Positions 5,134-24,707 of a DNA stretch of 39,330 nucleotides are shown here, piece by piece (position 1 is the first letter of the stretch; each line of letters begins with the position of its first letter). Both the position numbers and the translations under genes were made by a program. Below the pieces are notes generated by a model. It saw nothing but the letters and a program-made list of their open reading frames with translations. It had not been told where the DNA came from and did no database searches. The stretch is from an uncultured Acidobacteriia bacterium (GTDB lineage Bacteria; Acidobacteriota; Terriglobia; Bryobacterales; Bryobacteraceae). The stretch covers positions 1 through 39,330 of the forward strand of contig CAIYVZ010000142.1 of assembly GCA_903929755.1 (NCBI GenBank), in the 5' to 3' direction.

Positions 5134-6303
5134 GTGCCTTTACCCCGCGTTGCGTTTTTCACGGATACGTTTGACCAGATTAATGGTGTTGCTCTGACGA
5201 GCCGGATGTTTGTGGAGTATGCGCGGCGGCATGAGTTACCGTTCCTGGTGATCCGGCAGGGGGACAGGACGGAGGTTTTCGAGGACGGGTCCGTGACGCA
5301 TGTTCAGGTGGCGCGGGGAATGTTTTCGGTGACGCTGGATAAGGGGTTGCTGTATGACGCGGGGATGATGCGGCACCTGGGGCTGGTGGGGCGGGAGTTG
5401 CGCAGGTTTCAGCCGGATCTGGTGCATGTGGTGAGTCCGGGGGATATCAGCACGCTGGGTGTCTGGCTGGCGAAGAAGGAGAACGCGTTGCCGATGGCGA
5501 TCTCCTGGCACACGAATCTGCATGAGTTCGGCGCGCGGCGCCTCGATCGGACGCTGGCCTGGTTGCCGGATTCGGTTCGCGGGGCGATGGTGCGAAGAAC
5601 CGAGGCTTCGATTCTGGCTGCCTGTCTCCGGTTCTATAAGTTGGGGGATGTCCTGTACGCCCCGAATGATGAGTTAGTGGATCTGCTGGAGGCGAGCACA
5701 GGGAAGCCCGTGTATCTGATGAAGCGGGGAATCGACACGGCGATGTTCCGTCCGGAGAAGAGGACGGTAAACGACGGGATCCTTCGGTTGGGGTATGTGG
5801 GGCGAATTACTCCGGAGAAGAGTGTCCGGTTTCTGAAGAAGCTGGAAGAAGGCTTGCTGGCGGCTGGCGTTCCTCCGTTTCGTTTTCTTATTGTCGGGGA
5901 CGGACGCGAGCGGGAGTGGCTGCGGCGGGAATTGCGGAGCGCCGATTTGCCGGGGATACGCCGGGGGGCGGATTTGGCGGAAGACTACGCGAATATGGAC
6001 GTGTTTGTGTTTCCTTCGCGAACGGATACGTTTGGGAATGTGGTGCAGGAGGCCTTGGCCTCGGGTGTACCGGCGGTGGTGACGGACGGCGGCGGGCCGA
6101 AGTTTATTGTGCGGGAGGGGAAGTCGGGGTTTGTGGCTTCGAGCGAAGAGCATTTCGTTGCGCTCACCGCACAGTTGTTGCGGGATGCGGAGTTACGGTC
6201 GCGAATGGGGGCGGCAGCGGTAAAGCAGGCAGCGGGGGAGAGTTGGGACATGGTGTTCCGCAGGGTTTATGACGGTTACATGAGCATTCTGGAAACAACT
6301 TAG
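5134..6303 (+). CDS. GT4 family glycosyltransferase (MgtA/SqdX-like)
   Basis: The protein has 389 residues and a GT-B fold. The N-terminal Rossmann domain begins RVAFFTDTFDQINGVAL, typical of mannosyl/glucosyl lipid transferases. The C-terminal donor domain has LRLGYVGRITPEKSV (about residue 217), FLIVGDGRERE, and the EX7E region DVFVFPSRTDTFGNVVQEAL with EALASGVPAVV. The first acidic residue of EX7E is Asp, as in the TDTFGNVV subgroup that includes MgtA-like enzymes. It probably transfers a sugar from a nucleotide donor to a lipid acceptor at the cytoplasmic membrane; sugar and acceptor cannot be read from sequence. The start is GTG 5134, chosen because the family's N-terminus begins there. 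It leads a run of four same-strand genes. An Agt-like role in phosphorus-free glycolipid synthesis is an inference. Confidence 0.85.
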   Translation: MPLPRVAFFTDTFDQINGVALTSRMFVEYARRHELPFLVIRQGDRTEVFEDGSVTHVQVARGMFSVTLDKGLLYDAGMMRHLGLVGRELRRFQPDLVHVVSPGDISTLGVWLAKKENALPMAISWHTNLHEFGARRLDRTLAWLPDSVRGAMVRRTEASILAACLRFYKLGDVLYAPNDELVDLLEASTGKPVYLMKRGIDTAMFRPEKRTVNDGILRLGYVGRITPEKSVRFLKKLEEGLLAAGVPPFRFLIVGDGREREWLRRELRSADLPGIRRGADLAEDYANMDVFVFPSRTDTFGNVVQEALASGVPAVVTDGGGPKFIVREGKSGFVASSEEHFVALTAQLLRDAELRSRMGAAAVKQAAGESWDMVFRRVYDGYMSILETT

Positions 6304-6358
6304 CGGTCCCTTCACGCGTCCCTCACACGATTGCAAAGCAACGTTGCCAGGCTGAAGT

Positions 6359-6916
6359 TTGACGTCATCTTCCACACTTACATTGCGGGCCGCGCTCAGC
6401 AGACTGGTCCACGAACCGGGGGAGTATCTGGTGAGGCGGTGGAACTGGAAGTCGGCGCTGACGAGTTCGCTGACGCGGGGGTTGATCTTTCTGTTTGCCA
6501 ACCTGACGGCTGGATGGAGAGCGGCGGTGGGCGCGATGACGGCGGAGTGGATTTTCCGGGCGCTGACGTCGGGCTTCTACGGGTCGATAACGCAGACGAT
6601 GGGCGAGGTGGAGCCAGCGTGGCAGGGGTCGGCGATGGCAATGATCTTGTTGCCGGTGATCTCGCACTCGATGGAGTTTGGAGTGCATTATCTGCGCGGG
6701 ACGGCGCGTCTGAAAGCGAGCATTTTCGCGTCGATTGTGTTTACGGTGGTTTCGACGCTGTTCAACGTATATGCGATGCGGCGGGGCGCGATGGTGGTGG
6801 GCGCGGGCACACAGTCGTTTGCGGCTGACATGAAGTGTATGCCTCGCGTGATTGGAGGGTTCCTGGCCGCAGTACCGAGGCTGGTGGTGCGCAGTCTGCG
6901 GCGGGGGATTGCGTGA
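6359..6916 (+). CDS. Small integral membrane protein between two glycosyltransferases
   Basis: The protein has 185 residues and I do not recognise it as a named family. Predicted hydrophobic segments lie near residues 38-56 (GLIFLFANLTAGWRAAVGAM), 90-110 (AMAMILLPVISHSMEFGVHY), 120-138 (ASIFASIVFTVVSTLFNVYA) and 165-178 (IGGFLAAVPRLVV), suggesting three or four spans with basic ends. The annotated start at 6359 is a TTG with little support; a start some codons later is possible. Its TGA overlaps the GTG of the following glycosyltransferase by 4 nt, a sign of translational coupling. By position it could help anchor or transport the glycosylated product, but nothing in the sequence proves this. 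Confidence 0.65.
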   Translation: MTSSSTLTLRAALSRLVHEPGEYLVRRWNWKSALTSSLTRGLIFLFANLTAGWRAAVGAMTAEWIFRALTSGFYGSITQTMGEVEPAWQGSAMAMILLPVISHSMEFGVHYLRGTARLKASIFASIVFTVVSTLFNVYAMRRGAMVVGAGTQSFAADMKCMPRVIGGFLAAVPRLVVRSLRRGIA

Positions 6917-8217
6917 AGACGCTGCATCTGACAAATTCGTGGCATGCGGCTTCAGGCGGCATCAGCACGTTCTACCGGGCTGTGCTGGAGGAAGCGAACC
7001 GGACCGGCCATGAGATGCGCCTGGTGGTGCCGGGGGACGCGACGAGGACGGAGGAGGTGGGAGCGTTTGGGCGGATCTATTACATAGAAGCTCCGCGCGC
7101 ACCGTTCAATCCGAGCTACCGGGTGCTTTATCCGCAGCGGTACTTGCTGCCGGGCACGGCGTTACAGCGGATTCTCAACGACGAGCGGCCCGACTTAGTG
7201 GAAGTTTCGGAGAAGTACACGATGCCTTACTTTACAGGCCTGCTGCGAACGGGGCGTTTGCCAGGCGTGCGGTTCCGGCCTACGGTGGTGGGGCTGAGCT
7301 GCGAGAGGATGGATGAGAATCTGGCAGCCTATCTGACTCAGAGTAAGAGGGGCCGCGAGTTTTGCGCCTGGTACATGAAGTGGATTTACTTCCCGATGTT
7401 TGATCACCATGTGACGGTATCGCCGCATGTGGCGGGGGAGTTGGTGGAGGCCTCGAAGGGGCATAAGGTAAGACGGGGAATCTGGACCGCTCCGATGGGA
7501 GTGGACTGCGAGAGGTTTACACCGGGGCTGCGGTCCGAGGCGGGGCGCGAGGAGTTGCGGCTAAAGCTGGGCGCGCCGGCTGGGGCGACGCTGCTGTTGT
7601 ACGCAGGCCGGTTGGCGCGGGAGAAGAATCTACAGTTGCTGGTGGAGACGATGGCGAGGTTACCGGCAGCTGAGTATTGGCTGGCGGTAGCGGGTGAAGG
7701 GCAGTGCCGGGCGCAGTTACAGGAGGAGTTTGGCGAACGCGGAATCAGCAACGTAACCTTCGTGGGCCACGTCGGCGATAAGAGCCTTTTGGCTTCGTAT
7801 TACGCCAATGCGGATATCTTTCTACACCCGAATCCGCGGGAGCCCTTCGGCATCGCTCCGCTGGAGGCGATGGCAAGCGGACTGGCGCTGGTGGCGCCGA
7901 ATTCGGGTGGGGTGACGGAGTACGCGAACGGGCAGAATGCGTGGCTGATGCCCGCGACGGGCGAGGCATTTGCGGCTGCGGTGCAATCGATTCGGGAGCA
8001 GTGCGCGGACACGCGGGAGCGGAGGAAACAAGCGCGGCTGACGGCGGAGAAATTCCGGTGGGCTGCTGCAGCGGCGAGGTATCTGCAGCTCTATCGGGAG
8101 ATCCATGAGATCACGACAGGACGGCGGAGCGTGGAGAACTCAACCGCCATTTGGTCCACGGCTGGAAATGCTTTTGGACGTGAAACGAAATCCAACGAGA
8201 TTGTCGTCTCCCTGTAA
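6913..8217 (+). CDS. GT4 family glycosyltransferase
   Basis: The protein has 434 residues from GTG 6913, which overlaps the previous stop as GTGA. The frame is open to 6835, but the segment before 6913 lies inside the previous gene, whereas the family N-terminus (KTLHLTNSWHAASGGISTFY) begins at the GTG. The donor domain shows LLYAGRLAREKNLQLLVE, then GHVGDKSLLASYYANADIFL, then the EX7E motif in PREPFGIAPLEAMASGLALV with both Glu residues. TNSW-x-x-x-x-GG is the glycine-rich loop expected in GT4 enzymes. About 35 residues after the last helix (GRRSVENSTAIW onwards) form an extra polar tail. It likely adds a second sugar in the same glycoconjugate pathway as the gene at 5134; substrate unknown. 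Confidence 0.85.
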   Translation: MKTLHLTNSWHAASGGISTFYRAVLEEANRTGHEMRLVVPGDATRTEEVGAFGRIYYIEAPRAPFNPSYRVLYPQRYLLPGTALQRILNDERPDLVEVSEKYTMPYFTGLLRTGRLPGVRFRPTVVGLSCERMDENLAAYLTQSKRGREFCAWYMKWIYFPMFDHHVTVSPHVAGELVEASKGHKVRRGIWTAPMGVDCERFTPGLRSEAGREELRLKLGAPAGATLLLYAGRLAREKNLQLLVETMARLPAAEYWLAVAGEGQCRAQLQEEFGERGISNVTFVGHVGDKSLLASYYANADIFLHPNPREPFGIAPLEAMASGLALVAPNSGGVTEYANGQNAWLMPATGEAFAAAVQSIREQCADTRERRKQARLTAEKFRWAAAAARYLQLYREIHEITTGRRSVENSTAIWSTAGNAFGRETKSNEIVVSL

Positions 8218-8239
8218 GACTTAACAGGTACGCTCAGGC

Positions 8240-9379
8240 ATGGACAGTACGAAAAGGTCACGCGTGCACTTCCTCTGGGAGAACAATACGACGTCTGGTT
8301 TTGTGACGGGCGTGTCGCTGCACAGTCATACGTTATTGTCGCGGGAGTCGCTGGACTTCATTCAGCGCGCAACGAAGGGTGTGCCGATACTGTCCGGGGC
8401 CATCCGGCGGCAGGAGAACCGATATCGCCGGTTGACGGGCCGGGAACTGGACATGCGGCGGGGCTGGTGGACGCCGCCCTTATCTCCGCATCAGGCATGG
8501 GATTTGGAAGCCGGGCAGATTGAGAACAAGCTGGGGCTTAAGGCGCTGGTGTCGCTCTCGGACCATGACGATATTGAAGCCGGGATGCAACTGCACGTGC
8601 TGAGCGCGGCGCAGAACGTACCCGTATCGGTAGAGTGGACGGTTCCGTTTGGGCAGACTTTTTTCCACATCGGAGTGCATAATCTTCGGCTGGATGATGC
8701 GGTGGCGGTGATACGCGAAATGAGGGTAACAACGGCGGAACCTACGGAAGCCCGGATTGCCGGGGTGCTGGCGTGGGTAACGGAGGAACCTGGAACGCTG
8801 GTGGTGTTCAACCATCCGGCGTGGGATGAGAACCATGTAGGGGCTGCGGTTCACCGGGAGCATGTGGAGCGGTTTCTGGCGCGGTACGGGCACTTCCTGC
8901 ATGCGGTTGAACTGAATGGCTTGCGGCCATGGAAGGAGAATCGCGTGGCTGCCGGGATCGCGTCGGCTGCGGGGATGCCGTTGATTTCAGGCGGAGACAG
9001 GCACGGACGGGAGCCGAATGCGAACGTGAATCTGACGAATGCGGCGACATTTGGCGAATTCGCGGAGGAGATTCGCGAGGGGTATAGCCAGGTGCTATTC
9101 CTGCCTCATTACCAGGACTCGCTGAAGATGCGGATTCTGGAGAATATGCACGATATTTTGCAGGACGATCCGGACCATGCGATGGGCTGGCGGCGGTGGC
9201 ACGACCGGGTGTTTTATCAGACGGATGAGGGAGACGTGAAGTCGCTGTCGCAGTTGTGGGGCTGCAAGTTCCCGTCGGTGGTGAATCAGTTTTTGGGGCT
9301 GATGAGTCTGGTGAAGTCGCGTCGGGTTCGGTCCGCGCTGCGGATGGCGCTCAGCGAGAGCACGGACTTTGTGCTTTAG
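8240..9379 (+). CDS. PHP-type metal-dependent phosphoesterase-like protein
   Basis: The protein has 379 residues. It carries the PHP metal-site motifs in order: GVSLHSHTLLS (His28, His30), LSDHDDIEAG (about residues 105-114), FNHPAWDE (about 188-195) and ISGGDRHGRE (about 248-257). These match the HxH, SDHD, NHP and GxDxH signatures of PHP phosphoesterases. The C-terminal 100 residues are specific to this subgroup and unrecognised. No signal peptide is seen, so it should be cytoplasmic. It follows the second glycosyltransferase by 22 nt in the same operon, so it may remove a phosphate from a sugar or lipid intermediate. The stop overlaps tail-to-tail with the DUF218 gene on the other strand. 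Substrate is unknown. Confidence 0.75.
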   Translation: MDSTKRSRVHFLWENNTTSGFVTGVSLHSHTLLSRESLDFIQRATKGVPILSGAIRRQENRYRRLTGRELDMRRGWWTPPLSPHQAWDLEAGQIENKLGLKALVSLSDHDDIEAGMQLHVLSAAQNVPVSVEWTVPFGQTFFHIGVHNLRLDDAVAVIREMRVTTAEPTEARIAGVLAWVTEEPGTLVVFNHPAWDENHVGAAVHREHVERFLARYGHFLHAVELNGLRPWKENRVAAGIASAAGMPLISGGDRHGREPNANVNLTNAATFGEFAEEIREGYSQVLFLPHYQDSLKMRILENMHDILQDDPDHAMGWRRWHDRVFYQTDEGDVKSLSQLWGCKFPSVVNQFLGLMSLVKSRRVRSALRMALSESTDFVL

Positions 9380-10581
9380 GGGTCGAGAGCGTCCTGCGGG
9401 TCGATTTGCAGGGAGGTTTTGAGGGGCAGAACTTCGAGATCAAAAGGTGAGGTCCGGCCGAGGAGTTTGTAAGGCACGTACCCGAGTTCATCCTGACAGC
9501 GTTTTTGAAACGCCGCGGCTTCGATGTACTGGCTTTGCCCGGCGTCGGTTGCAACCAGCACGGTCTTCGTAAAGGGCATGCCGTAACGGTAGATGAGCCG
9601 CGCGGCGTTGCGCATGTTGGTGGTGGTGTGGCGGGCGTGGGGATCGATGATGACGGCTGCAGCCGGGATGCCGAGGCGGGTGACGAGATCCTTCTTCATT
9701 TCGAGAGCTTCGGCGTATGGCGTACGGTCCGGGTGGACGTAGCCTCCGGAGACGAGAATGAAAGGCGCTTTACCGTCGCGATAGCGTTTGGCGGCGATTT
9801 CGTTGCGCAGTTTCCCGAAGGATGAGAGAGCGAGGCCGGGGCGGTCTGCACCAGCGCCCGGGACGACGATGACGGAGTAGGGGTAGCGGGACCAGACGGT
9901 GGTTTTGATGGCCTTGACGGCTGCGGCGTTCTCCCCTGATTCCAGGGGTTCAAAACGGGCGGCTTCGTCGCGGTGGTTGGTGTTGAGAAGTTCGAGACCG
10001 AAGCGGAGTGACGGCGCAAAGAAAGTGTGGAGACTGGCGCGGTCGTCCTCGATAACGCTCACGAGGGTTTGCACGAGGCGATGCCAGGTGGCGGCTTTCG
10101 GATCGTAGAGCATTCCGTCGATGGCCGGGTAGCGGGGAGGAAGGCCGAGAGCGTAAACATCGATGAGGCGATTGAGGCCGGCGGCACAGTCGGCCCAGGC
10201 TTTGGTGAGGAGGCCTTCCCCGCCTTCCTCGTTGTAGCGGATGTAGGTTTCACTTTGTTTCAGGGGGCCATCGACGAGGGCCTTCAGCGCTGGAGAGGTT
10301 TGGTAGAGCGAGGCGAGTGCCGTGGAGATTTCGGCGGTCTGTTCCGGGGAGAAGCGGAGAGCTTTGGAGTAGCAGGGAACGTCGAGTTGACAGGTGTTTG
10401 CAGCAGTAAGGAGAGCTTCGAGGCGTGCGGTGTGGATTTTGCTCAGGGCAGGATCGGACTGGATAGCGGAAGAGCGTTCCAGCAGAGTGAGCAGGTAGAA
10501 GTTCTTATCCTGGAGAGGGTGCTGCGCGGTCGCTGTAAGAGCGACCGCGAGCAGGGTGGTGGAGAGACGGAGAGAGATCAT
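9376..10581 (-). CDS. Secreted DUF218 (YdcF/SanA/ElyC-like) domain protein
   Basis: The protein has 401 residues. The first 19 form a signal peptide ending TATAQ. Residues about 20-230 are helical and family-specific. The C-terminal part is a DUF218 domain: YSVIVVPGAGADRPG, FILVSGGYVHPD, EALEMKKDLVTRLGIPAAAV, IDPHARHTTTNMRNAARLI and VLVATDAGQSQYI. This is the Rossmann-like order of YdcF/SanA/ElyC proteins, which act in the envelope (ElyC affects undecaprenyl-phosphate metabolism; YdcF binds SAM). It overlaps the S1/P1-type gene upstream by 4 nt (ATGA), so it is the last gene of the receptor-phosphodiesterase operon. The fusion of an exported helical N-terminus with DUF218 is larger than classical 220-260-residue members. 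Enzymatic role unknown. Confidence 0.78.
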   Translation of the reverse strand: MISLRLSTTLLAVALTATAQHPLQDKNFYLLTLLERSSAIQSDPALSKIHTARLEALLTAANTCQLDVPCYSKALRFSPEQTAEISTALASLYQTSPALKALVDGPLKQSETYIRYNEEGGEGLLTKAWADCAAGLNRLIDVYALGLPPRYPAIDGMLYDPKAATWHRLVQTLVSVIEDDRASLHTFFAPSLRFGLELLNTNHRDEAARFEPLESGENAAAVKAIKTTVWSRYPYSVIVVPGAGADRPGLALSSFGKLRNEIAAKRYRDGKAPFILVSGGYVHPDRTPYAEALEMKKDLVTRLGIPAAAVIIDPHARHTTTNMRNAARLIYRYGMPFTKTVLVATDAGQSQYIEAAAFQKRCQDELGYVPYKLLGRTSPFDLEVLPLKTSLQIDPQDALDP

Positions 10582-11579
10582 CGCTTTAAGGCTGGTGCGG
10601 GGGCCGCGGTGCCGGTTTCGGGATTGTAGCCCTGGGCGGTTCGGAGCGTGGGATTGGGCAACTGCTGCAGGGGCTTGGCGCTTTCTATCCAGGCAGTGTA
10701 TGTGAGGTCGCGCAGGAGGGCGGCTGCTTTGGCGAGCTGACCTTTGGCGAGGCGCGCGGCGGGGAGGCTGGCTTTGTCGGCAAAGGCCCCGTCTTTATCG
10801 AGCTGATAAACAGCTTCGACGTGGGTGGAGGCGTCGTCCAGATGGGCAACGATGGCGGCGAAGGGATCGTCGAGGAGCCGTGCCTTCTCCATGAGCGGCG
10901 TCAGGTCTGCGTCGGTGAGTTGAATGAGATCAACGAAGGAGGACTCAAAGCGGCCATGAATGCGGGGGTCGGTGGTGTACTGCTTCGGGTTGGGACCGAG
11001 CCAGCCATCATGGTGAATGGTGTCGTGGAGGGGTTGGGCTCCATCGGCAGTGTAGTGACCGAGCCAGCCCATGTAGAAGGCGATGTCCTGCGCCTGGTAT
11101 TTGGCCTCCTGTTTGGCGTCGGGAGTATCGGTAGCGATCAGACGTCGATAGAGGCGCATGGCGGACTTCATGCGGTCGTAGTTCTCGATGGCGGCATAGG
11201 GCATGGTGCCGGTCCAGCGAACGTTGGTGAGAGCGGCGCGGTCGGCGTCCTTGTCTTTGAGCCGGAGGTACTCGTCGTAGAGCCGCAGGACGAATTCGTA
11301 GCGGTTGCGGGGGATGACGGTCAGGAAGGCGAACTGCTCTTTGAACCAGCCGTGATTGGGATCTTCGAAGATCTTCGAGTAAGGTTCCGAGCCACCGCGC
11401 CAGGAGTCCGGAACGGGGCCGGTTTTGGCGATCCAGTCTTCGTATTCGGCGAGGAACGCGGGACCACCTTGCGGGAGGCCCTTAACGGCAGCGCGGTTGG
11501 CGCTTTGGTGTCCGCGAGGACCCCAGGCGCCGGTGGCGAGGACAGCGAGTGTGATGAGGAGGAGGGAACGAATTCGCAT
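10578..11579 (-). CDS. Secreted S1/P1 nuclease / phospholipase C-like zinc hydrolase
   Basis: The protein has 333 residues with a signal peptide (MRIRSLLLITLAVLATG). The predicted mature protein begins AWGPRGHQSANRAA, and an N-terminal Trp followed by a His is the hallmark of the trinuclear zinc site in S1/P1 nucleases and bacterial phospholipase C. Further metal ligands appear in FYMGWLGHYTADGAQPLHD and DPRIHGRFESSFVD (the HxxxE-type pair), and in IVAHLDDASTHVEAVY. Known family members hydrolyse phosphodiesters in nucleic acids or phospholipids; which one applies is not decidable here. It begins 8 nt after the Oar-like receptor stop and is coupled to the DUF218 gene, so it is likely periplasmic and feeds or processes what the receptor handles. 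A loss of some histidines relative to fungal P1 cannot be excluded. Confidence 0.75.
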   Translation of the reverse strand: MRIRSLLLITLAVLATGAWGPRGHQSANRAAVKGLPQGGPAFLAEYEDWIAKTGPVPDSWRGGSEPYSKIFEDPNHGWFKEQFAFLTVIPRNRYEFVLRLYDEYLRLKDKDADRAALTNVRWTGTMPYAAIENYDRMKSAMRLYRRLIATDTPDAKQEAKYQAQDIAFYMGWLGHYTADGAQPLHDTIHHDGWLGPNPKQYTTDPRIHGRFESSFVDLIQLTDADLTPLMEKARLLDDPFAAIVAHLDDASTHVEAVYQLDKDGAFADKASLPAARLAKGQLAKAAALLRDLTYTAWIESAKPLQQLPNPTLRTAQGYNPETGTAAPAPALKR

Positions 11580-11587
11580 GGTTTTCC

Positions 11588-14464: not shown

Positions 14465-14647
14465 ATGGCGGATTTTTCCCTCTGTGAAGGTTTGAGCGTA
14501 GAGTTTTTTGGCGCGGCTGGGGAGTAAGTTTGGGGAGTAAGGCGGGCGATCGGGGCGCTTAATCTCTGACAGGTCAACAAGATGAGAGACGGGGAGATTT
14601 CCGCTTGCAGAAGGGGGTAAAATGGGAGTAAGATCAGTCTTAACTTG

Positions 14648-14673
14648 CTGTAAATAAAAGACTTACATTACAG
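14648..14673. promoter_or_regulatory. Inverted repeat in the receptor/regulator divergent region
   Basis: Perfect arms CTGTAA (14648-14653) and TTACAG (14668-14673) are separated by 14 nt, with another TTACA inside. The site lies 18 nt before the regulator start at 14691 and about 185 nt before the receptor start on the other strand. It is a candidate operator for the regulator itself. The arms are seen directly; the function is inferred. Confidence 0.3.
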
Positions 14674-15917: not shown

Positions 15918-15979
15918 AGGCAACAGTTTCTGAATCCGGTTGTCATCTGGTTGAAGCGGAAACAACCTAACGTGAATAT

Positions 15980-17710
15980 GTGGTGTTCTCTGAACTTCCC
16001 TCCAACCGGCTGCCGGCTCCGTTTGCCAGCGCGGTGAATCGTTTTCTGAAGATTGATGAACTGGTGCGCCTGTATGAGAGATCGCGCACAGAAAAGCCCC
16101 TGGCGGGCGAGATGCTGCGGGAGTTGAACGTTACCGTTCAGGTGTCTGACAAAGACGTGGCGCGGGTACCGAAGAAGGGTGCCGTGATCGCGGTCTCGAA
16201 CCACCCGTTTGGGTTGCTGGACGGGGTGATATTGACGGACCTGCTGACAAAGATGCGCAGCGATGTCCGCATCCTGACGAACGGCATGCTGGGGCAAGTG
16301 GCGGAGCTGGCGCGGATCTGCATTTTCATTGATCCGTTTGACAGGCCGGAGAACAAGTCAGCAAACGGGCGGGCCTTGCGCGAAGCCATCGTGCATGTGC
16401 GAAAAGGCGGGATGTTACTCATCTTCCCGGCTGGCGAGGTATCGCACTTTGACCCCAGGGGCGGGGCGATCCGCGATCCGGAGTGGCGGGCGACGGCAGC
16501 GCGTCTGGTACGGATGACGAAGGCCCGTGTGGTTCCGATCTTCGTGAGTGGCGCGAACAGTTTGCCGTTCCAGATGCTGGGGATGGTGCATCCGCGACTG
16601 CGGACGGCGGCCCTGCCGGGTGAGTTCTTGAATAAGCGTGGCCAGGTGGTGGAAGTCCGGCTTGGCAACGTGATTGAACCGGTTCGAATGGAGGCGTTTG
16701 CTACCGACGCGGAGGCGATCGGTTACCTGCGGCGGCGGTCGGAGTGGCTGGCGCGGCGGGGCGAACGGGAGGCGGGCAAGCCGGCGCAGGCGATGGAGGT
16801 GGCTGCGCCGGAGGAGCCTGGAGGACTGGGTGGAGAGGTGGAGCACTTACCGTCTCTGTGCCGGATCGCGAGTGTTGGGGAGTTGGAGGTCTACGCGGCA
16901 GAGGCGCAACAAATTCCGCGAGTGCTGCGCGAGATCGGGCGGCTGCGGGAGGTGACATTCCGCGCGGCGGGCGAAGGAACCGGACGAGCTTTGGACCTGG
17001 ACCGCTTCGATCAGTATTACCTGCACGTCTTTGTATGGCACCGGGAGCGCCGGGAAGTGGTGGGCGCGTACCGGGTCGGCGATGTGCCGCGGATCCTGCT
17101 TCGCTACGGAGTGGAGGGTTTGTACACAAATACCCAGTTCCGGTTTGACGGCGAGTTTTTCCGCAGACTGGGACCGGCTCTGGAGTTGGGGCGTTCGTTC
17201 GTGCGGGCCGAGTATCAGCGGCAATTTCTGCCGCTGGCGCTGCTGTGGCGGGGGATTTGCGGGTGGATTGCGCGGCGACCGGAGTACACAACACTGATCG
17301 GCGCGGTGAGTGTGAGCGGGCAGTATTCGCGGTCGTCCCGGGAATTGATTGCAACCTACTTCGAGGGCCAGAGACGGGCCGGAGAAAAAGGGCACGTGAA
17401 GCCGCGGCGGCCCCTGCGCGGGAAGGTGGCGGCGGGCGCCATGCCGCAGGGGATGGAGGAGCTTTCCGAGTGGGTTTCCGATGTGGAAACAGACGGGAAG
17501 GGCCTGCCGATTCTGGTAAAGCAGTATGTGAAGCTGGGCGGACGAATCCTGGCGTTCAGTATCGACCCGGACTTTGGAAATACCCTGGATGGTTTCGTGA
17601 TGATGGACCTGCGGGGCGCACCACGGGAAGCGATGGAAAAGCACATGGGCAAAGAGGGCTCGGCGGCGTTTTTTGCGTGGCACCGGGTGGCGGCACAGGC
17701 CGCGGCGTAG
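15980..17710 (+). CDS. olsF: Bifunctional acyltransferase, OlsF-like (ornithine lipid synthesis)
   Basis: The protein has 576 residues and two acyltransferase domains. The N-terminal one (about 60-240) is PlsC-like: VSNHPFGLLDG with the HX4-5D pair His75 and Asp81, then LLIFPAGEVSHF, then VVPIFVSGAN. The C-terminal one (about 290-555) is the GNAT-like hemolysin/OlsB family: EVTFRAAGEGTGRALDLDRF, then YLHVFVWHRERREVVGAYRVG, then ALELGRSFVRAEYQ. This order matches OlsF of Serratia, where the C-terminal domain N-acylates ornithine and the N-terminal domain adds the second acyl chain. The product would be phosphorus-free ornithine lipid in the inner membrane. The start is a GTG pair at 15980 without a clear ribosome binding site. 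The stop TAG abuts the ATG of the response regulator, so lipid enzyme and two-component system share a transcript. The acceptor amino acid is inferred. Confidence 0.75.
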   Translation: MVFSELPSNRLPAPFASAVNRFLKIDELVRLYERSRTEKPLAGEMLRELNVTVQVSDKDVARVPKKGAVIAVSNHPFGLLDGVILTDLLTKMRSDVRILTNGMLGQVAELARICIFIDPFDRPENKSANGRALREAIVHVRKGGMLLIFPAGEVSHFDPRGGAIRDPEWRATAARLVRMTKARVVPIFVSGANSLPFQMLGMVHPRLRTAALPGEFLNKRGQVVEVRLGNVIEPVRMEAFATDAEAIGYLRRRSEWLARRGEREAGKPAQAMEVAAPEEPGGLGGEVEHLPSLCRIASVGELEVYAAEAQQIPRVLREIGRLREVTFRAAGEGTGRALDLDRFDQYYLHVFVWHRERREVVGAYRVGDVPRILLRYGVEGLYTNTQFRFDGEFFRRLGPALELGRSFVRAEYQRQFLPLALLWRGICGWIARRPEYTTLIGAVSVSGQYSRSSRELIATYFEGQRRAGEKGHVKPRRPLRGKVAAGAMPQGMEELSEWVSDVETDGKGLPILVKQYVKLGGRILAFSIDPDFGNTLDGFVMMDLRGAPREAMEKHMGKEGSAAFFAWHRVAAQAAA

Positions 17711-18388
17711 ATGCGGGATGCGGTGCTTGTAGTGGAAGACGACCCGGAAATGGCCGAGGTCCTTCGCGAGGGGTTTGAACAGGACAACCTGGAGGTGCAC
17801 CTCGCGCGGGACGGTGGCGAAGGCCTGAGGCTTGCGCGTCAGGGAAAATATCAGGCGATTGTCCTGGACGTGATGTTGCCTGTGATGCACGGGTACACGG
17901 TGGCGCGGGAGCTGCGGTCGGACGGGGACCGCACGCCGATCCTGATGCTGACGGCCCGTGACGAAGTGGCCGATATCGTGCATGGTCTGGATTCGGGAGT
18001 GGACGATTATTTGACGAAGCCGTTCTCGTTTCTGGAGTTGTCAGCACGGGTCCGGGCTTTGATTCGACGGGGCGCGCCGAGGGCCACGCAGCTGGAATTG
18101 GGCGACCTGGCAATGAACCTGGCGACGCACGACGTACAGCGGGGCGACCGAAAGATCCATCTCACGCGGACCGAGTTTCAGCTGCTGGAGATGCTGATGG
18201 TGAATTGCGGACACGTAGTCCGGCGGGGGGAGCTGTTGCGGGCAGTTTGGGGATCGGGAGCACACGTGGAAGAGAACACGCTGGATGCGGCGATCAGCGC
18301 GCTGCGCAGCCGAATTGAGTTGCCGCAGACGCCGCGTTTGATTCACACGGTACGCGGCTTTGGGTATCGGATGGACCTGCAGGAATGA
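17711..18388 (+). CDS. OmpR/PhoB-family response regulator
   Basis: The protein has 225 residues. The receiver domain has the acidic pocket VVEDDPEM (Asp10, Asp11), the phosphoacceptor in AIVLDVMLPVMHGY (Asp53), the conserved Thr in LMLTARDE and Lys in DDYLTKPFSF. The C-terminal winged helix (about 130-222) includes LTRTEFQLLEMLMVNCGHVV, TLDAAISALRSRIE and the terminal IHTVRGFGYRMD. This is a typical OmpR-class transcription factor, which binds 11-bp direct repeats as a dimer after phosphorylation. Its ATG directly follows the stop of the acyltransferase gene, and its own TGA overlaps the kinase ATG (ATGA). A matching direct repeat lies just after the kinase gene, before the PepSY gene. Confidence 0.93.
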   Translation: MRDAVLVVEDDPEMAEVLREGFEQDNLEVHLARDGGEGLRLARQGKYQAIVLDVMLPVMHGYTVARELRSDGDRTPILMLTARDEVADIVHGLDSGVDDYLTKPFSFLELSARVRALIRRGAPRATQLELGDLAMNLATHDVQRGDRKIHLTRTEFQLLEMLMVNCGHVVRRGELLRAVWGSGAHVEENTLDAAISALRSRIELPQTPRLIHTVRGFGYRMDLQE

Positions 18389-19797
18389 AGCTGGCACAAC
18401 AAGCCCGACCAAGCCGAGCCTGGCCCCTCCGCGTCCGGCTGACGGCGACATACACGGCGATTTTGATGGTGGTGATTGCGGCGCTGGAAATAGCCGGGTA
18501 CGTGAGTGTACGGGCTGCGATGAATGCCCTGATGGATCACGAAATGACTACCCGGCTGGCAGGGATTGAGGACCACATGGCGCGACACCTGGAGCGCTAT
18601 GGCTGGCCACGGACGGGCGCGGACCTGTCGCTGCACCCGGCGTTTCAGCCTGGGCTGCTGGTGATTCGGGATGCGGCGGGCGCAGTTCTGTTTGCGGGCG
18701 AGGGGATGAGCGGGGCTTCGGGCAAGGGGGATTTGCTGCGACTGCTGTCAGTCCGGCGACAGATCCACGGGCAGGCATACTCACTGGTACTGGGCACCGA
18801 TCTTCGGGTGGCGTCGGCAGTGCTTCAACAGTACTGGGTGATGCTGATGGTTGCACTGCCTTTTCTGCTGGTGCTGAGCGCGGGGGCCGGGCACTGGATG
18901 AGTGGGCGGGCCATGGCGCCCATCCGCAACATGATGGCAGCCGCGAGGCAGATTGATTCGCAGAACCTGAGCGAGAGACTACCTGTACCGGCAACCGGGG
19001 ACGAAGTTCAGGGGTTGGCCGAGACATTCAACGGGATGCTCGAGAGGATCGAGAGCGGCTTTCAGAAGATGCGGGAGTTTACAGCCAACGCGTCTCACGA
19101 GTTGAGAACTCCTGTAGCGATTGTGCGGGCTACGGCGGAGATAGCGCTGCTGAAGTCACGTGCGACCAGCGAGGACTACCGGGTGGCCCTGGAGAGGGTA
19201 CTGCGGGAGTCGGAGCGCAATAGCCTGCTGATTGAGAACATGCTGGAGCTGGCGCGTGCGGACACGGGATTGGCGGTAAGAGAGAGGGTCTGGCTGGACC
19301 TGAGTGACGCCATACGGGGGGCCTGTGAACAGGTTGCGCCGCTGGCGCTGGCACGCGGCATCGAATTGCGGCCACCGGAACGCGGGAGCCGGCAAAGCGT
19401 ATGGGGAGACGGGGAGCAGTTGCGGCGACTGTGGCTTATTCTGCTGGACAATGCGATCAAGTACACGCCACCGGGTGGAACAGTTTGGGCGGGATGCGGC
19501 AGCGATGAACGGGGCCAGGCGGTGGGGGAAGTGGGGGACACAGGGATTGGCATTTCGGGGGCGCAGACGGGCCTGATATTCGAGCGATTCTATCGGGTGG
19601 ATCAGGCGCGCGGCCGGGGGATGGGCGGTGCCGGCCTGGGGCTGGCGATTGCGAGGGAAATCGCGGCTTCTCATGAAGCGATGTTAGAGGTGGAGAGTGA
19701 AACGGGCGTGGGATCCAGGTTCTATGTTACGTTCGCGTCAACACCAGACCAGGATGTTACCGAGAACGTGGAGAGCGAGCTACAAACTGTCAGGTAA
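18385..19797 (+). CDS. Membrane sensor histidine kinase
   Basis: The protein has 470 residues. TM1 is at about 28-50 (TYTAILMVVIAALEIAGYV), then a periplasmic sensor of about 100 residues, TM2 at about 150-172 (VMLMVALPFLLVLSAGAGHW) and HAMP (MAPIRNMMAAARQIDS to LAETFNGML). HisKA follows with ANASHELRTPVAIVR (phosphorylated His238), then the ATPase: N-box LLDNAIKYTPPG, G1 VGDTGIGIS, F-box FERFYRVDQ, G2 GGAGLGLAIA. All catalytic boxes are present. There is no PAS domain, so this is not a classical PhoR; the layout is of the CusS/QseC type. It is coupled by ATGA to the response regulator. The signal sensed is unknown; the context suggests an envelope or nutrient cue. Confidence 0.92.
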   Translation: MKLAQQARPSRAWPLRVRLTATYTAILMVVIAALEIAGYVSVRAAMNALMDHEMTTRLAGIEDHMARHLERYGWPRTGADLSLHPAFQPGLLVIRDAAGAVLFAGEGMSGASGKGDLLRLLSVRRQIHGQAYSLVLGTDLRVASAVLQQYWVMLMVALPFLLVLSAGAGHWMSGRAMAPIRNMMAAARQIDSQNLSERLPVPATGDEVQGLAETFNGMLERIESGFQKMREFTANASHELRTPVAIVRATAEIALLKSRATSEDYRVALERVLRESERNSLLIENMLELARADTGLAVRERVWLDLSDAIRGACEQVAPLALARGIELRPPERGSRQSVWGDGEQLRRLWLILLDNAIKYTPPGGTVWAGCGSDERGQAVGEVGDTGIGISGAQTGLIFERFYRVDQARGRGMGGAGLGLAIAREIAASHEAMLEVESETGVGSRFYVTFASTPDQDVTENVESELQTVR

Positions 19798-19824
19798 TTC
19801 TCAGGTTCCACTAATCCTATTGTA
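19788..19824 (+). promoter_or_regulatory. PhoB-box-like direct repeat and promoter before the PepSY gene
   Basis: CTGTCAG (19788-19794), 4 nt, TTCTCAG (19799-19805) form a 7-4-7 arrangement with 11-bp periodicity; TCAGGT is repeated exactly at 19790 and 19801. Both spacing and sequence resemble the Pho box bound by OmpR/PhoB-family regulators. A possible -10 box TATTGT (19819-19824) lies 13 nt downstream, and the PepSY ATG is at 19853. The repeat is seen; regulation by the two-component pair just upstream is inferred. Confidence 0.45.
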
Positions 19825-19852
19825 AGACGGCGCTGGTAGCTTAGGTTCATCC

Positions 19853-20995
19853 ATGTCAGAAGCCAGTTTTGAGTTACGCCGCAAGCTACGTAAGGTTGTT
19901 TATTGGTCACACCGCTGGATCGGGTTACTGGGCGGGGTCTTTATCTGCCTCCTGGCAATTAGTGGAGGGATAGTGACGTTCCGGCCACAGATTGCGAACC
20001 TGCTGTCTCCGGCGGCAGTCACAGGGAATTGCGTCGCGCAGGTGGACTGGAATCAGGCCGAGCGGGAGATTGAAGCGTTCGGGCATTCGAAGATCAATCG
20101 GGTGTATGCGCCGGCGGCCCCGGAGACGCGGTATCGCTTCCGCATGATGACGGCGCAGAACTCGATCTTTGACCATGTGATTTACGATGGGTGCGCCGGA
20201 AAGGTAACGGGCACCGCGAACCTGGGCTGGATGGACTGGCTGGTGGATTTCCATCACAATCTGCGCGCGGAGAAAGCGGGACGAACGGCGGCGGGCTGGA
20301 TTGGTCTGCTGCTGTTCCTGAGTTCGCTGGGCGGGTTACTGCTGTGGCTGCTTTCGAAGCCGGGCGTAATGCGGTTGCTGCGGATACGCGGTGGCCTGCT
20401 GATGCAGAAGGATCTGCACACGACGACTGGTCTGGTGTCGGTTCTGTTGCTGCTCACTGCCTCCTTTACCAGTCTGTGGCTGTGCTTTCCACAGACGATG
20501 CGGGGTGGCCTCGCGTACTTTACCTCTTTGCCGAAAGACTCCCGGGTGCCGCGGGCGAAGAAGCCTGGGGAGGAGACTCCCCTGGCGGGTCTGGGCGACA
20601 TTATGAAGGCAGCTGAAACGAAGATTCCGGATGGCTCCATCCGCGAGATCCGCTTGCCGGAAGGCTATGGCAATGTGCAGGTGCGGATGTGGCGCGAGGG
20701 CGATTTCCGGTCTCTGGGCAACAACGTTGTGACGGTGGACCGCGCGACGGCGACGGTGATGGCAACGAATCTGTACGAGACGAAGCCGACTGGTGACCGC
20801 GTGGTCCAGGCGATGGCGGGCATGCACTACGGCGAGTGGGGCGGGCTGTTGTTCCGCAGCCTCTACGGTCTGGCGGGCTTCGGGGCCGGCCTGTTGTTTG
20901 TTACCGGGTTCTTATTGTGGTGGCTGCCGAAGCGGCTGGCCGCGGCTCGTGCCTCGAAGACGCCGGCGCGCGATGCGGTAACAGCGGCCGCTTAA
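19853..20995 (+). CDS. PepSY-associated transmembrane protein
   Basis: The protein has 380 residues with four TM spans in the order typical of the PepSY_TM family: YWSHRWIGLLGGVFICLLAI (about 18-45), GWIGLLLFLSSLGGLLLWL (about 143-165), KDLHTTTGLVSVLLLLTASF (about 187-210) and SLYGLAGFGAGLLFVTGFLL (about 337-360). Conserved histidines lie at the membrane faces (SHRW, DFHHN, DLHTTTG and MHYGEW). Between TM3 and TM4 a periplasmic PepSY-like section carries IREIRLPEGYGNVQVRMW. Related proteins sit beside TonB receptors and are thought to act in ferric or haem-type reduction, or as protease inhibitors; the function here is not proven. It leads the PepSY, Oar-like receptor, acid phosphatase run. 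Confidence 0.8.
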   Translation: MSEASFELRRKLRKVVYWSHRWIGLLGGVFICLLAISGGIVTFRPQIANLLSPAAVTGNCVAQVDWNQAEREIEAFGHSKINRVYAPAAPETRYRFRMMTAQNSIFDHVIYDGCAGKVTGTANLGWMDWLVDFHHNLRAEKAGRTAAGWIGLLLFLSSLGGLLLWLLSKPGVMRLLRIRGGLLMQKDLHTTTGLVSVLLLLTASFTSLWLCFPQTMRGGLAYFTSLPKDSRVPRAKKPGEETPLAGLGDIMKAAETKIPDGSIREIRLPEGYGNVQVRMWREGDFRSLGNNVVTVDRATATVMATNLYETKPTGDRVVQAMAGMHYGEWGGLLFRSLYGLAGFGAGLLFVTGFLLWWLPKRLAAARASKTPARDAVTAAA

Positions 20996-21040
20996 GCGAG
21001 TTTCCTTTTTAACATTTTTGGCGATCTGAGGAGGATCATT

Positions 21041-23956
21041 ATGATTCGCAGGACAGGTGTGTGTGTATTCGCTGTCGCCATGGCGGCGATGGCGCAGGTA
21101 GACCGGGCCACGGTAACGGGAACCCTGCACGACCCATCGGGAGCGGTGGTTTCGGGAGCGCTGGTAACGGTAACGTACGGGGCCACGGGCCTCCACAGAA
21201 CGGTTCCGTCAAACGGGTCAGGAAACTTCGTGCTTCCCGGGTTGCCGATAGGACATGCAGTCGTGAACGCGATCGGAACCGGCTTCCGGCCCGTGCAGTT
21301 CGAGACGGATCTGAATGTAGGTGAAACGAAGACGCTGGATCTGACGTTCGAGGTGGCCAGTGTGGACAGTTCGATTCAGGTGGTGGGTGAGGCGGAACTG
21401 GTAAAGGACAGCGCTGCGATTGGCGCGTCGTTCCAAAATGCCCAGATCGCCAAGCTGCCCATCAATGGCCGCAACTACCGCAACCTGATGGCCCTGGTGC
21501 CGGGCGCGGTGGATACGGGCGGCTCGAACATTCGCTTCCTGGGACACGGGGCGGACGATAACAATCTACGGATCGACGGCGTGGATGCAACTTCGGTCCG
21601 GAACCAGACGCAGACGAGCCGGTTGCTGATTTCGACCGATGCGATTGCGGAGTTTCGGGTGAATACGGCGATGTATACAGCGGAATCGGGCGGGGCTCCG
21701 GCAGGGCAGATTGAGCTGGTCTCCAAGTCCGGGAGCAACGCTTATCACGGAAGTCTCTTCGAGTATTTCCGGAACAGCGCGCTGGATTCGCGGAGCCCGT
21801 TTGACGGCACGAAGCTGCCGGCGTTCCGGCTCAATCAGTTTGGCGGGACGGTTGGCGGAAAGGTGATTCAGGACCGGACGTTCTTCTTCGGGTCCTATGA
21901 AGGTCTGATTCAGCGCCAGGGAAAGACGCAAATCGGCCTGGTGCCTTCCGACGCGTTCCGTGCCAGGGCTGCTGCCGCCGTGCAGCCGATTCTGGCTGTG
22001 TACCCGAAAGGCCAAACCTCAGCAAATGCGAATGTGGACAACTGGATCGGCGTGGGCAGTTCTACGCAGGACGAGCACGTGGGTCTGATCCGGGTGGACC
22101 ACCGTTTCAGCGATAAGCTGAGTGGCTATTTCCGGTTCAGCAAGAACTCGACGGATACATTCGCGCCGAACGCGGCGTTGCCCATTGGGACGGCCAATCA
22201 CGATCAGCCGACGAGCGGCCTGTTTGAGTTCTTGCAGATTGTGAATCCGCGGACGACACATGAATTCCGGTTGGGGGCGAATTATGCACAGCCGCTGAAT
22301 TCGACTTCCACATCGCCGATTGATATTGCGGTGGCCGTGCCGTCGCTTTCGGCGTTGCCGGCGGGCACGAAGCGAATCGCGTTCGGGCTGACGCAGAATC
22401 TGATTGATCAGTGGACTACCTTGCGCGGGTCGCATTCGATAAAGTTCGGAGCGGAGCTGCGCCGGATGCAGCTGGTGATTCATGATTTCGCGAATGCGCA
22501 GGCTGGGACCCTGACCTATGCGAGTCTGGCGGATTTTCAGGCGAACAAGTTGACGACAGTGGAATATTCCGGCGAGCTGCCGACGAAGCAGATGCGCAAG
22601 ATTGAGTACTTCGGGTATGTGCAGGACGAGTGGAAGATCCGGCCGGACCTGACGGCGAATCTGGGCCTGCGGTATGAGTTTTACAACGTGTTCACCGAGA
22701 TTCACAATCGGGCGATTCCGTTCGATATTCAGACGTGCGGCGGGTATTGCCCGGCTGGTTCTGATTTCGCGTTTCCGGATACGAACAACTTCGCGCCGCG
22801 CGTGAGCTTCGCGTGGTCGCCGAAGAAGCTGAAGGACAGGACAGTCATCCGGTTCGGGGGCGGGATCTTCTATGGCGATGCGCAGATGGGCGACGCGTAC
22901 AGCCCGGCAAATAATGATTCACTGCGGTTCACATTGTCATCCGCGACGACGCCGGGTCTGGCATTCCCGATCAATCAGTATCTGAACCCGAATGCATCGT
23001 CGGCGACGGCGCCGAGATCAATGCCCCGGAATAAGCAGAATCAGGTTTCGCAGCAGTGGGGCCTGACGGTGCAGCAAGCTATCCGGAAAGGCGTGACGTT
23101 TGAGGCAGGCTATAACGGCCAGCAGAACTACCACGTGTTCAACCGGAACTATGTGAATGTGATCAATCCGGCGACGGGGCTGCGGCCTCTGCCGACGATT
23201 GACCAGGTGGACGTGCGCGGAGAAGACGGCGTGGCGAGCTTCCACGGTTTGATCAGCTCGCTGCAGGTGAATAACTTCAAGGGTTTGCTGCTGCGTGCGA
23301 ACTACATGCTCTCGCATGCGATTAACGATGGGTCTTCGGGGGGTGGTGGCGCGGATGGCGCGCCGCAGAATGTGGCCTGCCGGGCGTGTGAAAAGGGCAG
23401 CAGTTCCATTGATGTTCGCCATGTGTTCACGACGAACTTCAACTACCAGATTCCGGTGTCACGGACCAGGTGGTATGGCGGTTGGGAGTGGAGCGGGATT
23501 GCGACGGCGCGGACGGGGCTACCTCTGAATGTGTCGATCACGCGGGCGGCAACGGCGGTAAAGGATGGCAATACGCTGTCCGTGCAGAGGCCGAATCTGG
23601 TGCCGGATGTACCCGTGTACCTGGACTATGGGACAACTGGACGCTGGCTGAATCCGGCGGCGTTTTCTATTCCGGCGGCGGGGACGTGGGGCAATCTGGG
23701 CCGGAATGCGTTCCGCGCTCCGGGACTCTTCCAGATGGACACGGCGATTACGAAGCAGACGCGGCTAACGGAGAAGGTGGGAGTGCAGATCGGGCTTCAG
23801 ATCTTCAACCTCATGAACCATCCGCAGCTGGGGGCGCCGGCGAGCAATTTCAGTTCGACCGCAAATTTTGGGAAAATTACGGCGCCGATCAATACGTCGC
23901 CGGTGGGCGCGGGAACTCCGCGGCAGATGCAGTTGCTGATGCGCGTGACGTTTTAG
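21041..23956 (+). CDS. Oar-like TonB-dependent outer-membrane receptor
   Basis: The protein has 971 residues. A short signal peptide (MIRRTGVCVFAVAMAAMAQ) is followed by the regulatory-like beta-sandwich (TVTGTLHDPSGAVVSGALVT to about residue 105). The plug domain has LPINGRNYRNLMALVPGAVD, NNLRIDGVDATSVRNQ and IELVSKSGSNAYHGSLFEYF. A beta-barrel follows, ending RQMQLLMRVTF with terminal Phe. A strong GAGGAGG ribosome binding site precedes ATG 21041. It follows the PepSY gene by 45 nt and precedes the acid phosphatase by 10 nt, so all three are likely one transcript. The barrel contains two Cys pairs (TCGGYC and ACRACE) that may form extracellular disulfides. Substrate unknown; the phosphatase suggests a phosphorylated compound. 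Confidence 0.87.
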   Translation: MIRRTGVCVFAVAMAAMAQVDRATVTGTLHDPSGAVVSGALVTVTYGATGLHRTVPSNGSGNFVLPGLPIGHAVVNAIGTGFRPVQFETDLNVGETKTLDLTFEVASVDSSIQVVGEAELVKDSAAIGASFQNAQIAKLPINGRNYRNLMALVPGAVDTGGSNIRFLGHGADDNNLRIDGVDATSVRNQTQTSRLLISTDAIAEFRVNTAMYTAESGGAPAGQIELVSKSGSNAYHGSLFEYFRNSALDSRSPFDGTKLPAFRLNQFGGTVGGKVIQDRTFFFGSYEGLIQRQGKTQIGLVPSDAFRARAAAAVQPILAVYPKGQTSANANVDNWIGVGSSTQDEHVGLIRVDHRFSDKLSGYFRFSKNSTDTFAPNAALPIGTANHDQPTSGLFEFLQIVNPRTTHEFRLGANYAQPLNSTSTSPIDIAVAVPSLSALPAGTKRIAFGLTQNLIDQWTTLRGSHSIKFGAELRRMQLVIHDFANAQAGTLTYASLADFQANKLTTVEYSGELPTKQMRKIEYFGYVQDEWKIRPDLTANLGLRYEFYNVFTEIHNRAIPFDIQTCGGYCPAGSDFAFPDTNNFAPRVSFAWSPKKLKDRTVIRFGGGIFYGDAQMGDAYSPANNDSLRFTLSSATTPGLAFPINQYLNPNASSATAPRSMPRNKQNQVSQQWGLTVQQAIRKGVTFEAGYNGQQNYHVFNRNYVNVINPATGLRPLPTIDQVDVRGEDGVASFHGLISSLQVNNFKGLLLRANYMLSHAINDGSSGGGGADGAPQNVACRACEKGSSSIDVRHVFTTNFNYQIPVSRTRWYGGWEWSGIATARTGLPLNVSITRAATAVKDGNTLSVQRPNLVPDVPVYLDYGTTGRWLNPAAFSIPAAGTWGNLGRNAFRAPGLFQMDTAITKQTRLTEKVGVQIGLQIFNLMNHPQLGAPASNFSSTANFGKITAPINTSPVGAGTPRQMQLLMRVTF

Positions 23957-23966
23957 GAGGAATGAG

Positions 23967-24707
23967 ATGAAAACGATTCAAATAGTTGCGTTGCTGGTGC
24001 CGGGTTTGCTGCTGGCGCAAGCTCCGGGTGGTCGCGCGCCGCGCAAGCCGGTATTTGTAACACCGGAGCAGGTAAACGCTTCAGGTATGCTGCAAAGCCC
24101 GCCCAGGAACGATTCGTGGAAGACGCTGGAAGAACTGGCGGAACTCCATAAAATCCAGGAGACGCGAACGGCGGCTGAAGTAGCGCACGCCCAGGCGGAC
24201 GACAGGGAGGAGAGTTTCTTCGCGTTTGCGGATGTTCTGGGGCCGAAGTTCCAGAGGACCACGCTGCCGCTGACGGCGCTGTTATCGGACCACATCAAGA
24301 ACGATGAGGGTGTGATTGTGAACCCGGGCAAGAACTTCTTCAAGAGACCGCGGCCGTACCATTTGGATGGCACGCTGAAACCGGTCTGCAAGACGACAGA
24401 GAACCGGGAAGACTATGCGTATCCGAGCGGGCATGGGACCACGGGGTTTGTTTCCGCGCTGGTGCTGATCCAGATGGTGCCGGAAAAGCGGGACGCGATT
24501 CTGGCCCGGGCGGACGACTATGCCCATAGCAGGGAAGTTTGCGGCGCGCACTACGCGAGCGATGAGCAGGCGAGCAAGAATCTGGCTTACGCCATGATGG
24601 GCGTGATTGCCAATCATCCTCAGTTCCGGAAGGAACTGGAGGCGGCCCGGACTGAGACGAGGGCCGCATTGGGATTGCCGGCTTTTGAGCCGATGGCGAT
24701 GAAGTAG
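23967..24707 (+). CDS. Class A non-specific acid phosphatase (PAP2 superfamily), secreted
   Basis: The protein has 246 residues with a signal peptide ending LLLAQ. It carries the complete PAP2/vanadium-haloperoxidase signature: KNFFKRPRP (Lys122, Arg129, Pro130), YPSGH (Pro153 to His156) and SREVCGAHYASD (Ser188, Arg189, His195, Asp199). The spacing fits class A bacterial acid phosphatases (PhoN-like), which are periplasmic and release phosphate from many monoesters through a phospho-histidine. The ATG has AGGAGG 8 nt upstream and lies 10 nt after the receptor stop, so expression is linked with the receptor. Size and motif order match the family well. It is the strongest single link of this region to phosphorus acquisition. 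Confidence 0.9.
   Translation: MKTIQIVALLVPGLLLAQAPGGRAPRKPVFVTPEQVNASGMLQSPPRNDSWKTLEELAELHKIQETRTAAEVAHAQADDREESFFAFADVLGPKFQRTTLPLTALLSDHIKNDEGVIVNPGKNFFKRPRPYHLDGTLKPVCKTTENREDYAYPSGHGTTGFVSALVLIQMVPEKRDAILARADDYAHSREVCGAHYASDEQASKNLAYAMMGVIANHPQFRKELEAARTETRAALGLPAFEPMAMK

Follow-up and report, generated by a model that had tools for sequence, protein, structure and literature searches.

A probably composite envelope gene stretch in an uncultured Bryobacteraceae bacterium, with a probable phosphorus-free lipid module that includes a PHP-type phosphoesterase

Do genes for phosphorus-free lipids and genes for phosphoesterases that lie side by side in a bacterial genome form one island answering to phosphate, or a composite of separate units? 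The question is raised by a contig of an uncultured bacterium of the Bryobacteraceae (Acidobacteriota), referred to here as the window (39,330 bases, the entire contig G000:C142 of a genome of 6.86 Mb that is 97.9% complete in 212 contigs). A first-pass annotation had read positions 5134–24707 as a phosphorus-economy island held together by function. Acidobacteriota are common soil bacteria, and little turned up on how they build phosphorus-free membranes. We favor, with a probability of about 0.6, a composite of three units over a single phosphate-starvation island. The first (5134–9379, with an OlsF-type gene at 15980–17710 as recurrent partner) would make phosphorus-free envelope lipids. 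The second (9376–14464, minus strand) would be a receptor with a secreted zinc phosphodiesterase, located beside OlsF only in the closest relatives, and the third (17711–24707) would consist of a receptor under two-component control, a reductase-like PepSY protein and an acid phosphatase. From the proposed functional unity we retain the proximity of OlsF to the PHP-type phosphoesterase and GT4 glycosyltransferase genes of the first unit, which is above chance, but neither the whole 19.6 kb as a unit nor its control by phosphate. The comparisons cover samples of 200 genomes of the family, 19 of the genus and 299 of the class, together with 33 neighborhoods around OlsF, 40 around the PHP gene and 11 loci of relatives carrying the PepSY gene; the assemblies are incomplete. 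The closest relatives of the window are G179 and G194.

The first unit is encoded on the plus strand and contains the two GT4 enzymes already named in the first-pass annotation, GT4a (5134–6303; PF00534, 86 bits) and GT4b (6835–8217; PF00534, 103 bits). The start of GT4b is probably near 6916, since the sequences of its homologs begin near KTLH. Both proteins give general GT4 matches only, with weak hits to many polysaccharide glycosyltransferase models, and the best NCBIfam model for GT4b (GlcN-PG synthase) scored 141 bits, below its cut-off of 480. The MgtA/SqdX-like label that one of them had received was not confirmed, the matches giving no distinction from other GT4 enzymes. Between them lies a gene for a small protein of 185 amino acids, MemB (6359–6916), that by eye is a membrane protein and has no Pfam match. 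The assignment of the following gene (8240–9379) as a PHP phosphoesterase held. Neither Pfam nor NCBIfam models match it, but the expected metal-site residues (D108, H109, D110, E132, H143, H192, D253 and H255) are invariant in 38 sequences, with H28 and H30 nearly so. Its structure model is confident (pLDDT 92.9), and Foldseek retrieved 11 PDB entries with E values up to 0.001, the PHP domain of RNase AM ranking first; the fold matches are partial (TM by query 0.31–0.42, 12–18% identity). From their titles we take these 11 to be PHP enzymes or polymerase PHP domains. The conserved His/Asp/Glu metal set and the modeled fold thus identify the predicted protein as being of the PHP type.

The recurrent partner of these genes is located further downstream, also on the plus strand (15980–17710). 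It codes for a putative bifunctional aminolipid (ornithine-lipid) synthase with the two domains that define OlsF, an N-terminal O-acyltransferase (PF19576) and a C-terminal N-acyltransferase (PF13444), in agreement with the OlsF-like acyltransferase first proposed. The same domain order characterizes OlsF of Serratia and Bacteroidota, where PF19576 is the N-terminus and the C-terminus is OlsB-like (PMC11631085, available portion). The window protein differs from these in scoring 370.7 bits with NCBIfam model NF052615, short of the equivalog cut-off of 620, and in being matched also by the GlsB and GlsA models. We have therefore named it OlsF-type and not OlsF proper. In the portion of PMC12493201 available to us, the groups listed with OlsF are Proteobacteria and the CFB group; Acidobacteria are not mentioned for this enzyme.

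Evidence of a connection comes from gene positions. In the family sample OlsF was found in 99 genomes and PHP in 109, and 71 genomes carry the two together (odds ratio 4.2 and p 1.3e-6 by Fisher's test, with no correction for kinship). In 10 of these 71, belonging to eight genera, OlsF lies within 7 kb of PHP, when ca. 0.26 would be expected under random placement. These are the genome of the window and G194 (one genus), G119 and G186 (another genus), G009, G011, G056, G069, G120 and G181. Order and strand of the pair vary, the genes being codirectional in G069, G119, G186 and G056 and divergent in G011 and G181. Seen from the PHP side, the best 80 PHP loci among named records have GT4a within 6 kb in 58 cases, a MemB homolog in 20, a GT4b homolog in 11 and OlsF in seven. 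Clustering of the neighbors of these loci gave, besides PHP and GT4 (61 loci), MemB in 18, OlsF in eight, an Oar cluster in 19 and several smaller clusters. The pair of GT4a and PHP is present in both Edaphobacter lichenicola records and missing from the two Granulicella loci. Overall, the data support the idea that OlsF and the PHP/GT4 genes neighbor each other far above chance, a pattern that fits a shared role in phosphorus-free lipids as judged from sequence.

Several observations weigh against this picture. The Fisher probability is too small because the genomes are kin. Of the 71 family genomes with the two genes, 61 have them far apart or on different contigs; the OlsF copy beside PHP is split between frames or interrupted by stops in G119 and in G120, and the one in G009 was matched only in part. 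No GT4 or PHP match was found around OlsF in seven other genomes of the genus (G153, G199, G124, G142, G041, G187 and G163), and in G179 each of the two genes is on a contig that ends beside it. Within the class sample OlsF is present in 67 of the 299 genomes, 11 of them outside the family. Only four of these 11 have PHP, on a different contig in the three with listed places (in the fourth, G361, the place of PHP is not listed). PHP itself was detected in 144 class genomes and is common outside the family. The fact that PHP is common and OlsF rare there indicates a function of PHP that is independent of OlsF, the latter joining it within the family.

The arrangement resembles the PlcP-Agt system of lipid remodeling described in marine bacteria and Agrobacterium, in which the phosphoesterase adjoins a glycosyltransferase and genes for phosphorus-free lipids are nearby in many strains; in marine bacteria the acceptor is generated by PlcP, encoded beside Agt, through removal of a phosphate group (PMC4796936, in the part available). 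A phosphoesterase conserved beside a glycosyltransferase is also what the PHP loci present, in the 58 of 80 cases given above. Two differences are that the phosphoesterase of the window is of the PHP type by its fold and not PlcP, which is of the metallophosphoesterase type, and that the genome of the window has no Pho box above chance in this stretch, no PhoU match and no PstB over cut-off. We consider the first unit to be, probably, a module for phosphorus-free lipids that is similar to PlcP-Agt except that its phosphoesterase is a PHP enzyme, and this is the solid part of the analysis. From the families, the gene order and the recurrent linkage observed, we infer a division of labor in which the OlsF-type enzyme would acylate ornithine or another amino acid twice, giving an aminolipid, the GT4 enzymes would glycosylate a lipid acceptor, for example diacylglycerol, and the PHP enzyme would take off a phosphate or phosphoester headgroup, supplying or trimming the lipid acceptor. 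Among the titles listed from a limited literature collection on ornithine lipids, OlsF, PlcP, PHP/glycosyltransferase pairs and Acidobacteria PstS, none reported a PHP-GT4-OlsF module. As both PHP and the adjoining MemB are without a Pfam family, the lipid set is partly uncharacterized, and the recurrent link of PHP to OlsF offers a testable lead to a phosphorus-free lipid pathway.

An alternative for the same genes is that GT4 and PHP make a part of a surface polysaccharide or lipopolysaccharide, OlsF being linked merely through a common role in the envelope. The weak matches of both glycosyltransferases to polysaccharide models would agree with it, as would a core job of PHP that is independent of OlsF, given that class genomes from other families commonly carry PHP and rarely OlsF. 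However, we recognized no polysaccharide-export or sugar-nucleotide gene in the top 28 neighbor clusters (judged by the first 60 residues), and the repeated linkage to OlsF points to lipids, so that we regard the polysaccharide explanation as unlikely.

In several relatives a gene for a protein of ca. 300 amino acids is found just upstream of PHP (L085 7594–8511, L087 3575–4537, L162 5017–6078). Its cluster was present in 14 of the 80 loci, with a median length of 321 amino acids, and the two copies scanned have no Pfam family. It was not seen in the window cluster, where the gap between GT4b and PHP is 22 bp. A record titled Arcobacter (L228) has an order of PHP, GT4 and MemB that resembles the Bryobacterales loci and is perhaps a mislabeled bin.

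The third unit, on the plus strand, starts immediately after OlsF with the two-component pair reported before, an OmpR-type response regulator (17711–18388) and a histidine kinase with a HAMP domain (18385–19797). It continues with a PepSY_TM inner-membrane protein (19853–20995; PF03929, 148 bits), an Oar-like outer-membrane receptor that we call receptor B (21041–23956; PF25183, 527 bits) and a class A acid phosphatase (23967–24707; PF01569). The phosphatase was correctly recognized in the first reading. Its PDB matches are relatives of PhoC and PhoN, down to E 7.6e-31, and include enzymes named phosphate-irrepressible. The translation contains, by eye, K-X6-RP, PSGH and SR-X5-H-X3-D, which we take to be the three signature motifs of the class. 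It differs from PhoC/PhoN in its NCBIfam PhoC score (73.7 bits, cut-off 430) and in being encoded right after an Oar-like receptor. The PepSY protein is a candidate reductase similar to FoxB/PiuB, with seven histidines in contexts such as HRWIG, DFHH, DLHTTTG and GMHYG that we assume to be typical of the FoxB-type family. A TonB-dependent receptor together with a PepSY membrane protein is also the composition of hiuABC or FoxB-type ferrisiderophore loci, and in Caulobacter such proteins serve the use of iron from siderophores (PMC13001220, as far as the available text goes). The window locus departs from them in having an Oar-like receptor, accompanied by the two-component pair and the acid phosphatase. 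The unit most likely takes up a metal-bound, possibly phosphorylated, nutrient; that the ligand is phosphorylated or phosphate-bound is a guess based on the presence of the acid phosphatase. This operon of receptor, reductase and phosphatase represents a second lead, toward joint uptake of metal and phosphorus.

The third unit is found elsewhere in an arrangement of its own. Regulator, kinase, PepSY and Oar genes are contiguous in four of the 11 PepSY loci (L117, L118, L120, in fragments, and L125, where PepSY is just 31% identical), and in L118 and L125 a phosphatase (PAP2) follows. L121 has PepSY, Oar and phosphatase, with the contig end beside PepSY, L116 has only Oar and PepSY, and L119 PepSY alone, while the arrangement differs again in L122, L123, L124 and L126, whose PepSY relatives are weaker. 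OlsF was not seen at any of the 11 loci. Matches to the phosphatase at E 1e-15 were obtained in 13 further genomes of the family, and an Oar-type receptor adjoins it in seven of the 10 examined (G199, G041, G192, G058, G102, G153 and G095), the exceptions being G142, G187 and G065. At the same threshold neither PepSY nor the phosphatase was found in G179 or G194. The alignment of G194 to the window covers 7636–17706 (78.7%), stopping where OlsF ends, and that of G179 covers 9539–17806 (84.3%), i.e., 96 bases into the regulator, after which the sequences diverge. Conservation of gene order had been suggested as a check of the island, and this check went against it: the right half is not kept with the rest, as the regulator-kinase-PepSY-Oar-phosphatase set occurs elsewhere without OlsF and is not beside OlsF in G194.

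The junction itself nevertheless argues the other way. OlsF abuts the regulator with a gap of zero, and in G179 the initial 96 bp of the regulator are still present downstream of OlsF, so that present-day co-transcription of units 1 and 3 is possible. Provided that the G179 contig is correctly assembled, we infer that G179 has lost the third unit, which would have adjoined OlsF in its common ancestor with the window. The first-pass annotation had counted at least four transcripts. Gene orientation requires three, and a fourth is not forced, the plus-strand run of 14691–24707 having no internal gap larger than 62 bp. Promoter and terminator scans of 5000–24990 gave 6 and 11 sites (shuffle means 4.9 and 16.5) and were of no help for placing transcript limits.

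Between PHP and OlsF lies the second unit, composed on the minus strand of a DUF218/YdcF-type protein (9376–10581; PF02698, 54 bits), a candidate enzyme of the S1/P1-nuclease or zinc-phospholipase-C type that by eye is secreted (10578–11579) and Oar-like receptor A (11588–14464; PF25183, 346 bits). On the plus strand follows gene 14691–15917, conserved in G179 and G194, which matches neither Pfam nor NCBIfam and is unassigned; it may code for a DNA-binding-type regulator. The first reading had listed the zinc enzyme, and its residues agree: nine candidate ligands were picked by eye (W19, H24, D58, H76, H175, D179, H185, H208 and E212), and the spacing of the last five (H-D-H-H-E) occurs in only four of 4,622 distinct reading frames. 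This gene and its two orthologs account for three of the four and alone also have W..GH ahead of the five. With P1 numbering assumed for the ligands, and the cleavage site placed by eye, the predicted mature protein has the Trp at its N-terminus and the ligand spacing of P1, by which we assign it to the S1/P1 type. The protein has no Pfam match, PDB sequence searches returned annexins and other chance-like matches only and none of S1/P1 type, and an AlphaFold model from three sequences reached pLDDT 38. DUF218, the S1/P1-like gene, receptor A and gene 14691–15917 adjoin OlsF in G179 and G194. Genes of this unit were beside OlsF nowhere else among the 33 OlsF neighborhoods, and DUF218 and the S1/P1-like gene were in none of the 40 PHP neighborhoods (no genome-wide search was made in either case). 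Three genomes share conserved blocks (around CTGACAGGTCAAC and ACTTACATTACA) upstream of gene 14691–15917, at 14540–14690, which may be an operator or a promoter of another kind. DUF218, gene 14691–15917, MemB and the PepSY gene had been absent from the original gene list.

As originally noted, both the S1/P1-like enzyme and the acid phosphatase follow an Oar-like receptor, with gaps of 8 and 10 bp. The weight of such neighbors has to be judged against the abundance of the family: the genome of the window gave 66 Oar-barrel-model matches from 65 scored of 125 candidates (two of the matches are pieces of receptor B). Since receptor A is outside that list, the figure of 65 receptors is a minimum, and an Oar neighbor is weak evidence of a shared role. 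This abundance, the 63 PhoB-model matches in the same genome and the restriction of the second unit beside OlsF to the window, G179 and G194 would suit a chance neighborhood of common families that were read together by their theme. Against it stand the proximity of OlsF and PHP, far above random, and the conservation of the third unit as a block. As an account of the whole stretch chance appears doubtful; it is disfavored for units 1 and 3 taken singly and is the best account of their adjoining each other.

As to control by phosphate, PhoU was not matched in the genome of the window, while 13 of 14 control genomes were positive. PstB over cut-off was found in 13 of the 19 genus genomes and in none of G000, G179, G194, G171, G206 and G199, the copy of G199 being split over two contig edges; PstS, PstC and PstA were not searched for. 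The first five, i.e., the genome of the window, its two closest relatives and two others, have apparently lost high-affinity phosphate uptake. The regulator ranks eighth among 13 full-length PhoB-model matches of its genome, none of them over cut-off (most of the 63 matches are receiver domains alone). A PhoB-PhoR identity of the pair was rejected: the heavy-metal type scores higher than PhoB (220 and 195 bits, both below cut-off) and the kinase has no PAS domain match. No pst gene was recognized by eye among the start sequences of the neighbors of the best PhoB-like pair of the genome (G000:C14). The Pho-box-like repeat of the first reading did not stand out, since the best score in the proposed interval (13 of 19) was equaled in 501 of 2,000 mononucleotide shuffles of it, and the top score of the window (14 at 26531) lies elsewhere. 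The consensus was of the E. coli type, and the pst promoters of two relatives scored 11 and 12 with it, so that a lineage-specific box would be missed. The accessible part of PMC6438641 contains nothing decisive on phosphatase regulation.

A single phosphate-controlled island, in which limitation induces all units, glyco- and ornithine lipids replace phospholipids and secreted phosphatases scavenge phosphate, is quite unlikely and was discarded: the gene types fit, there is no internal gap above 62 bp in 14691–24707, ornithine lipids of Vibrio cholerae increase at low phosphate (PMC12186959, available part) and marine plcP, often beside a glycosyltransferase, is induced by phosphorus starvation (PMC4796936), but the right half is conserved separately, neither a PhoU match nor PstB over cut-off was obtained, the regulator ranks low, the Pho box is at chance level and the phosphatase has relatives named phosphate-irrepressible.

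Within the composite of three units, one reading would join the parts in another way. The PHP-GT4 genes of Terriglobia, with OlsF added in the family, could be a lipid remodeling system in which the role of PlcP falls to PHP, as a phospholipase C or phosphatidate phosphatase; working in this clade without Pst-PhoU sensing, it might give a standing and not starvation-induced low-phosphorus membrane, the adjoining receptor operon coupling iron and phosphate release from metal-organophosphate complexes. We offer this as a long shot.

Other features of the window were recorded outside the three units. Directly upstream of the GT4 genes (3539–5001) there is a phage-type terminase large subunit split over two overlapping genes, whose ATPase part matches PHROG 7579 (176 bits) and whose second part, which we take to be nuclease-like, matches PHROG 27743 (108 bits). 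A Phd-like antitoxin (2317–2958) was the sole further PHROG match among the seven proteins scanned, and Rfam gave no match in the window at the gathering threshold. On the other side, a gene for a baeRF-type bacterial release-factor-like protein (31239–32420) adjoins a thioredoxin gene, and a piece of 392 bases (28953–29344) recurs in inverted orientation and with 88% identity on the G179 contig, downstream of OlsF.

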